Part shown: in pieces, positions 3,577 to 63,949 of the stretch
Position numbering within the stretch: the first letter of the stretch is position 1
Layout of the letters: every line of letters starts with the position of its first letter
Assembly (NCBI RefSeq): GCF_026151205.1
Contig: NC_087072.1
Coordinates: 3,429,375-3,493,374, forward strand
DNA length: 64,000 nucleotides
Source: Bolinopsis microptera
Taxonomy: Eukaryota; Ctenophora; Tentaculata; Lobata; Bolinopsidae
Direction: 5' to 3'
The notes under the pieces: generated by a model
The model's input: the letters and a program-made list of their open reading frames with translations, nothing else
What the model was told of the DNA's origin: nothing
Database searches by the model: none
Translations under genes and position numbers: made by a program

Positions 3577-4116
3577 TTAATCACATTCTTGTATACCCTT
3601 AAAGAGAAGGTAAAGTCCCTCAATGTTGATGTCTCCAATGTCGTTGAATGTCATGGTCATTACCTTGCCCTGAGTGTTAGTAGCACAGTCGAATCGCACT
3701 GTAGAGGTCTTGCCGCTCATATGCACTGTGTTACAAGTACTCTTCCCGACTTTAACCTGTAAGGAAGTTAACTCTTTTAACGAGGAACTAAGTGAAATTA
3801 AAATGACCAGAGGGAAAGGAGTTGGTGGGATTTGGAGTTAAGGGAGACGGATTAACCTCTAGAGTTGAAAATAATTCAAATCGATAAAAACATTGACTAA
3901 GTCTTGCAATTCATTATATTTTGAGACAGTTCATCCCATTTGAATGACTTACCACAACGTTTCCGCCACTCTTTGAACAGCAGGACTGTTTATTGTAGAT
4001 CTCCACTGTCTTTATCTGGTAGCAATGTTTGAGGTCTATTGTCACAACCTTGCCGCTCTTCACTCCTTGACACTTACCGTCACCGCATGGTAGACGCTTG
4101 ATCGACGATATAACTC
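3577..4116 (-). CDS. C-terminal half F-type lectin-like domain and stop
   Basis: Exons 3953-4116 and 3577-3756 (TAA 3577-3579). VTIDLKHCYQIKTVEIYNKQSCC aligns with the VDL...NR.DCC part of the F-type lectins, and VGKSTCNTV with the CGTI strand, ending LYLLFKGIQECD. The N-terminal half of the fold (AVDGN region) is missing. It closes the protein with the same family that begins it. Confidence 0.8.

Positions 4117-63949: not shown

Follow-up and report, generated by a model that had tools for sequence, protein, structure and literature searches.

The locus and the gene model

The window, i.e. the whole 64,000-nucleotide stretch of a Bolinopsis microptera contig (C1) that was analysed, contains the 3' part of a giant gene on the minus strand (3577..63949). 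A splice-aware gene finder resolved this part into 101 minus-strand exons, which comprise 11,500 codons and close with a TAA stop codon at 3579–3577. The initial annotation had counted about 101 exons and more than 11,500 codons, figures with which the model agrees closely. The coding pieces in the window number 104, and three of the boundaries between them are frameshift breaks, which leaves the 101 exons.

Only the two thirds at the 3' end of the gene fall within the window, and the remainder extends 37 kb further upstream. A whole-genome search with an F5/8-type C profile returned more minus-strand matches as far as 22 kb past the window edge, and flanks of 50 kb upstream and 30 kb downstream were added to the window. 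In the upstream flank the model reaches about 98.5 kb, with galectin, PAN, F-type, B-lectin-like and kringle modules on the way, and a start exon at 100,780–100,657 (both in window coordinates; contig C1 about 3,530,154) encodes MRLIFRGCSLLALLLVSKVLSFTS and ends in a phase-1 donor. Judged by eye and by a hydropathy rule, not by SignalP, MRLIFRGCSLLALLLVSKVLSFTS has the look of a typical signal peptide. Among ATG exons with a donor on the minus strand between 3 and 113 kb, four resemble a signal-peptide exon, and three of these lie within coding exons in another frame; looser scans gave extra candidates near 103.8, 98.9 and 56.7 kb, the donor phase of which misfits the next exon. The exon at 100,780 was taken as the start because it is the sole fitting candidate, with its phase-1 donor leading into a phase-1 exon. 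The proposed extent of the gene, 3577..63949, was therefore correct at the stop but not at the start, which lies outside, near window coordinate 100,780.

The whole model comprises approximately 171 exons over 97 kb and encodes about 17,470 residues (17,474 in the final model), with a mass of about 1.9 MDa (1.91) and a pI of 9.5, both computed on the first model, which was a little shorter (17,161 residues). Titin is about twice as long as this protein of some 17.5 thousand residues, and the earlier description "titin-scale" was about twofold too high. Domain models account for 94.6% of the chain, leaving a single gap of more than 30 residues (38), and no hydrophobic segments were found in the final chain besides the signal peptide and one galectin strand.

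The gene finder was of the Viterbi type, with codon-usage and splice-site models trained on the giant-gene locus, while domains were called with self-built HMMs and Pfam was run on representative or selected segments. For the final model, two earlier exons were dropped by hand (one lay in a LINE, the other was 15 bases long), earlier splice sites were retained at several shifted exons, and the signal-peptide exon replaces the start placed by the gene finder.

Domain architecture

From N to C terminus, the chain opens with a block of PAN, four WRDN, three PPSH, kringle, PPSH, PAN, two WRDN, kringle and two WRDN modules, where WRDN and PPSH, as well as UNK604 below, are names coined here for modules without any match above the Pfam cut-off. 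This is followed by four F-type lectin domains, a B-lectin-like domain, UNK604, four F-type domains, a B-lectin-like domain, UNK604 and four F-type domains, and then by galectin–PAN pairs spaced by six, four, two, ten and four F-type domains, with four more after the last pair. In total, this middle block has 42 F-type, six galectin, two B-lectin-like and six PAN domains. The C-terminal part consists of four Cys-pair repeats, a tectonin propeller, 100 further Cys-pair repeats and a degenerate F-type-like end. Compared to the window, the upstream part adds kringles, PAN, galectin, the two B-lectin-like domains and 24 F-type domains.

Within the window, where all these features lie on the minus strand and the lectin and PAN domains were called by HMM, the chain enters with the last exon of a galectin begun upstream (63841..63949), the PAN exon that follows it (63246..63467) and ten F-type domains (56983..63106). 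The core of the next galectin (56228..56840) seems to be interrupted by a single-base frameshift near 56,442; a PAN exon (55884..56108) and four F-type domains (53491..55643) succeed this galectin. The longest intron (48767..53490; 4,724 bp), with a LINE on the plus strand, leads from F-type to galectin, here a galectin of three exons (48070..48766), after which come a PAN exon (47692..47916) and four F-type domains (44807..47579). The first four Cys-pair repeats, a diverged PAN/apple fold recognised by repeat profile and HMM (43210..44647), precede the tectonin propeller (42040..43056), whose third and last exon also begins the next Cys-pair repeat. The 100 repeats that follow are arranged in triplets (4096..42039), with apparent frameshifts near 41,738 and 7,853 and a suspected one at about 15,040, and the last two exons with the stop codon encode a degenerate F-type/galactose-binding-like domain (3577..4095; PF22633, 28.3 bits against a cut-off of 27.8).

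The HMMs thus count 104 Cys-pair repeats, 19 F-type, three PAN, two galectin and one tectonin domain in the window. The 18 F-type domains and about 104 repeats of the initial annotation reappear in this count, the former as 18 full domains plus the degenerate one; the reported galectin, PAN and tectonin propeller were likewise recovered by the self-built HMMs, with Pfam in agreement on representative segments. The statement that the chain combines three sugar-binding folds is too narrow, as further sugar-binding folds are present.

Representative segments scored 114 bits for F5_F8_type_C_2 and 148 for kringle in Pfam, PAN_4 reached 41 bits on one galectin–PAN segment and 63 on an N-terminal segment, Tectonin (PF19193) 131 bits against a cut-off of 30, and galectin (PF00337) 71.1 bits on one domain against a cut-off of 22.1. 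The structural model of UNK604 (157 residues) is poor, with a pLDDT of 62, and its closest PDB hits are weak ones to jelly rolls (a bacterial glucanase and galectin-11), none of them at E<=0.001.

Sugar-binding potential

When one F-type domain was compared with solved structures (E<=0.01), all six matches were F-type lectins. Judged by sequence, the F-type fold is common to the giant-protein domains and to FBP32, the 1k12 lectin, the fucolectin-related 2j1r and Sm-hPAF, and the motif H-X26-R-X-D-X4-R/K with the adjacent cysteines of F-type lectins is kept in part of the domains. The solved relatives have one or two such domains as matched, whereas the giant chain has 42 plus one degenerate, beside other lectin folds. 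The fucose motif in the form H-X(22-32)-R-X-D-X4-R/K was found in 18 of 43 F-type domains of the first model (17,161 residues), with the exact X26 spacing in 11; a further 11 retain the R-X-D part alone and 14 have no motif. The full motif as searched is hence missing from 25 of the 43, one of which is cut by a frameshift, and since part of the motif is lost in so many domains, sugar binding by all of them is not to be assumed.

The H-x-N-x-R core of galectins could be seen by eye in five of the six galectin domains. One of these domains gave 73 matches among solved structures, and the 60 listed were galectin-type lectins with the exception of one fibre protein. The mannose-binding motif of B_lectin (bulb-type) domains is QxDxNxVxY, of which the two B-lectin-like domains carry two and three copies; their Pfam score of 22.9 bits is below the cut-off of 32.4. 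Sugar-binding motifs are accordingly retained in part of the domains, and these domains may bind sugars. No paper on both ctenophores and F-type lectins was found in the open-access literature searched.

The Cys-pair repeats are diverged PAN/apple domains

A profile built from 16 repeats and run on six-frame open reading frames gave 119 minus-strand matches, all of them located at 4.4 to 44.6 kb, with none in the 80 kb of flank. In the genome as a whole, all 42 matches of a repeat query lay at the giant gene among the best candidates scored. The repeats follow each other in triplets of about 75, 75 and 80 residues. By sequence profile they are not recognisable as PAN domains: Pfam returned no PAN match on a three-repeat segment or on four repeat exons, and a PDB search with the 16-repeat profile gave no match at E<=1. 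The AlphaFold2 model of the repeat, however, has an apple fold (pLDDT 88), on which prediction the Cys-pair repeats are diverged PAN/apple folds; a fold of no known kind was rejected for the same reason.

Exactly two cysteines occur in 82 of the 104 repeats, and a C-x(4-8)-C pair in 101. PAN/apple domains have two or three conserved disulfides, while the two cysteines of most repeats leave space for a single one. In their predicted fold the repeats resemble the apple domains of factor XI and plasma kallikrein, the N-domains of plasminogen and HGF, Sarcocystis SML-2, of which solved structures with a galactose derivative exist, and Toxoplasma MIC4. They differ from these proteins in number (104 copies), in the 75-residue triplets and in the one conserved Cys pair, and the triplet arrangement fails to superpose on apple discs (TM 0.25-0.26).

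Depletion of N-glycosylation sequons

The giant chain contains 23 N-x-S/T sequons, compared to 151 +- 11 in shuffled sequences, while the reversed motif and N-x-x-S/T, which served as controls, occur 131 and 139 times. NxT sequons are glycosylated more efficiently than NxS sequons; here NxT is found six times against 65 for TxN, and NxS 17 times against 66 for SxN. In the first model, the lectin block has six sequons against 70 and the repeat block 15 against 67; one against 5.6 is counted in the N-terminal block, which is too short to judge. Fifteen homologous proteins from elsewhere, which cover three stretches of the chain, together have six sequons against 24 reversed motifs and 34 N-x-x-S/T.

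Sixteen other open reading frames of the genome are not depleted (39 sequons against 44.7, summed by hand), though most of them do not encode secreted proteins; the two with a signal peptide by the hydropathy test have seven against 10.1. These controls derive from 38 rows, of which 17 were kept (the 16 and an open reading frame on contig C9). The other 21 were judged by eye to be shadows, duplicates, too short or of low complexity, and were removed; two pairs among those kept are near-duplicates, and the same 17 serve as codon-usage controls below. The C9 frame (locus L041, G000:C9:2284500-2291500, plus strand from about base 2197) encodes 1,056 residues without interruption, with PAN and F5/8-type matches. 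It has one sequon against 7.5 and no signal peptide by the hydropathy test. PAN and discoidin-like modules in one chain and few sequons are common to this protein and the giant protein, but it has about one sixteenth of the size, and kringle, galectin and repeat matches are absent there among the best candidates scored. A small relative of the giant protein, or else a partner to it, may be encoded here.

A possible explanation for the depletion is that a secreted lectin avoids binding to its own chain. As the C9 frame is also depleted, sequon loss may instead follow the domain families and not an adhesive role. We read the depletion as a result of selection on the chain in the ER; as it extends to the repeat block, it supports the view that this block, too, is translated and secreted.

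Proposed function

Taken together, we consider it probable that the locus is one ctenophore gene whose product, a basic protein of about 17,470 residues, is secreted, is not a membrane protein and acts as an adhesive or gel former through multivalent sugar binding. The signal peptide would route the chain to the secretory pathway, and the N-terminal PAN/kringle region probably joins partner proteins. The middle lectin block (42 F-type, six galectin, two B-lectin-like and six PAN domains) could engage glycans with fucose, galactose and perhaps mannose at many positions simultaneously, while the 104 diverged apple domains in triplets and the tectonin propeller may serve as a long spacer or as extra binding surface. 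With N-glycosylation sites so scarce, the stored lectins might be spared from binding their own chain, and on release they would cross-link glycans on mucus, prey or other surfaces. Among mechanisms, the cross-linking of glycans by a secreted, cationic and multivalent chain has the best support. The sequence itself shows the architecture, the signal-peptide-like start, the identity of the domains, the motifs kept in some of them, the sequon depletion and the existence of relatives, whereas a single transcript, secretion, sugar binding, granule storage and adhesive use are inferred.

Sfp1 of sea star footprints is a large multidomain secreted temporary adhesive with discoidin, lectin-like and vWD-type modules. 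It is about one fifth of the giant protein's size, and its vWD-type modules were not found in the giant chain. No vWD, C8, TIL or EGF modules appeared in the Pfam scans of selected segments, and the other domain models leave no space for them. PMC9229212 gives 3,853 residues for Sfp1 and 14,794 for Mlig-ap2 of Macrostomum lignano, which has a repetitive core and is glycosylated, and lists vWD, C8, TIL and EGF domains for Tmed-ap1, a relative of Mlig-ap2. Set against the same text, Mlig-ap2 and the giant protein are alike in being very large and repetitive, and Mlig-ap2 takes part in surface contact; the giant protein is longer, however, and has lectin and PAN folds and few N-glycan sites (PMC9229212). 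Going by its sequence, the giant protein may act like a giant temporary adhesive, but one outside the vWD/EGF adhesive families. No description of the giant gene was found in the open-access literature searched.

The most likely cell types are the colloblasts of the tentacles or mucus glands. A role in colloblasts, i.e. in the glue used for prey capture, is put forward tentatively; mucus or coat is nearly as likely, and matrix less so. More specifically, and still more tentatively, the protein could be the backbone of the colloblast glue, in which a 1.9 MDa poly-lectin grips prey glycans by means of several lectin folds, the apple-triplet array acts as an extensible tether, and nearly all sequons have been lost against self-gluing in the granule. 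The foremost alternative, a quite possible one, is a mucus or surface-coat gel from gland cells of the epidermis or lobes, or an egg-coat protein, since every sequence feature of the adhesive reading suits a mucus or coat protein equally. In PMC6278862, lectin and MACPF domains and signal peptides are over-represented among colloblast candidate genes, which mildly favours the tentacle. The same paper calls the colloblast adhesive undescribed, and its candidates lack BLAST support for homology to known adhesives (PMC6278862).

The giant gene is a specific candidate for the colloblast adhesive and makes the question of that adhesive directly testable; short-read transcriptomes might fragment such a gene. 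If the reading is correct, the combination of F-type, galectin, B-lectin-like, tectonin and about 112 PAN/apple domains in one chain would be an extreme multivalent lectin. The sequon depletion is a simple mark that other genomes can be searched for, and it perhaps indicates that a secreted lectin keeps clear of its own ligands.

Alternative readings of the locus

The model could have merged two or more adjacent genes, such as a kringle/PAN gene, a lectin gene and an apple-repeat gene. The N-terminal modules occur at many other loci (123 genome matches, including the giant gene) and the repeat query matches solely here, so the blocks differ in history, and a block as widespread as the N-terminal one could carry its own transcript. 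Merged genes are nonetheless unlikely, as there is a lone fitting signal-peptide exon for all blocks, and the introns between the N-terminal and lectin blocks (364 bp) and between the lectin and repeat blocks (159 bp), both phase 1, leave no space for a gene end, a promoter and a new signal exon. Moreover, the sequon depletion extends to the repeat block, which itself has no signal peptide, and codon usage is alike across the three blocks, with codon adaptation to three actins of 0.503, 0.506 and 0.520 (whole gene 0.513). This adaptation exceeds that of 16 of the 17 control frames (0.37 to 0.49), with 0.695 for a photoprotein control.

Along the chain the domain class changes 37 times. An intron lies at 31 of these changes, and all 31 are phase 1 (compared to 98 of the 170 introns overall), which is a signature of exon shuffling. 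The other six boundaries (PPSH–PAN, two FTL–B-lectin, two UNK604–FTL and tectonin–repeat) fall within single exons and are thus physical fusions. The initial annotation had named the introns at 48.8–53.5 kb and 44.8 kb as points where transcripts might start or end. The former proved to be an F-type-to-galectin intron with a LINE, the sister copy of which at 56.8 kb measures 142 bp, and it does not look like a gene end; the latter is only the 159 bp intron, without the look of a gene end. A split into several genes at these two introns was rejected from the signal-exon scan and the intron lengths. Intron structure and codon usage favour one well-expressed gene, and a single transcript would span the whole model.

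An improbable reading is that of a structural protein of the mesoglea or extracellular matrix, or a cell-adhesion scaffold, with no external secretion. Many matrix proteins are giant modular chains of such domain kinds, and a signal peptide, no transmembrane segment and the modular build of the giant chain, where discoidin-like, PAN and kringle domains occur, would fit, but lectin-like, PAN, kringle and a few unnamed modules fill 94.6% of the chain, with scant space for collagen, EGF, laminin or fibronectin modules, and we would not expect such strong avoidance of N-glycans in matrix proteins.

The single reading frame of the initial annotation is not uninterrupted in this assembly: the modelled chain has no in-frame stop in 17,470 codons apart from the breaks at four apparent single-base frameshifts that have to be assumed, near 70.5, 56.4, 41.7 and 7.85 kb, three of them in the window. 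Inspection by eye suggests a fifth near 15.0 kb, and a looser frameshift penalty placed additional breaks near 21.3, 79.3 and 93.8 kb, while the strictest run (penalty -24) placed none and split the chain into four genes. At the 7.85 kb site, the sole one checked, the protein of a relative reads intact. In a check of the assembly on myosin, no two of 73 matches lay within 30 bases of each other (by eye), but the sample is small, with only about one such break expected at the giant-gene rate. With four to five apparent frameshifts over some 52 kb of coding sequence, three more at the looser penalty and the continuous protein of the relative, the locus might be a copy in decay, or one broken in a particular allele, of a gene that still functions in relatives, but this too is improbable given that stops are absent elsewhere in the frame and that most splice sites, the domain cores and the codon bias are intact.

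Relatives and other loci

Homologues of three stretches of the giant gene were found in public records at 53 to 94% identity overall: a repeat exon has four (53 to 93%), UNK604 together with the F-type neighbour in its frame has nine (59 to 93%) and the third stretch has two (75 and 80%). These homologues indicate that the gene family is conserved in relatives. A phage search gave no match, as was to be expected, and no mitochondrial contig turned up in a search with COX1.

Elsewhere in the genome, a cluster at C1:17894527-17929062 carries PPSH-type and kringle pieces 82-93% identical to the N-terminal block of the giant gene, as well as tandem PAN; discoidin and repeat matches are not listed there among the best candidates scored. 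On the minus strand of C11 (16207723-16211124), an open frame of 1,593 codons has many tandem kringle matches. Two similar discoidin loci lie about 88 kb apart on C13 (4993000-4998000, L054, and 5081000-5086000, L053) with near-equal scores, one with an internal stop, and represent either a recent segmental duplication or an uncollapsed haplotype.

The introns of the giant gene hold further features. An open frame with a hydrophobic start and a MACPF match (8822-10309, plus strand; Pfam 28.9 bits) lies inside the intron at 8,294-10,616; the same domain is over-represented among colloblast candidates in PMC6278862. Reverse-transcriptase and endonuclease-like open frames of LINE type, named by eye, are found in two introns on the plus strand (21458-22795 and 48915-53110), and a purine-rich, minisatellite-like intronic stretch (16246-16899) is open in several frames on both strands.

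A bilaterian host was rejected, as an Antp homeodomain query gave 11 matches of only 38 to 55% identity, none of which is a bilaterian-type Hox gene. The photoproteins show that the genome is a ctenophore's: a ctenophore photoprotein query gave 61 genome matches, for the most part with 85 to 91% identity, and many of these lie in tandem. Arrays are located at C5:17012652-17026413, with 15 equal-scoring copies at a spacing of about 940 bases, and at C13:11082373-11094352, with further clusters on C1, C2, C3 and C13. The photoprotein gene recovered from the genome scored 421 bits against mnemiopsin 1, 415 against berovin and 68 against the hydrozoan obelin.
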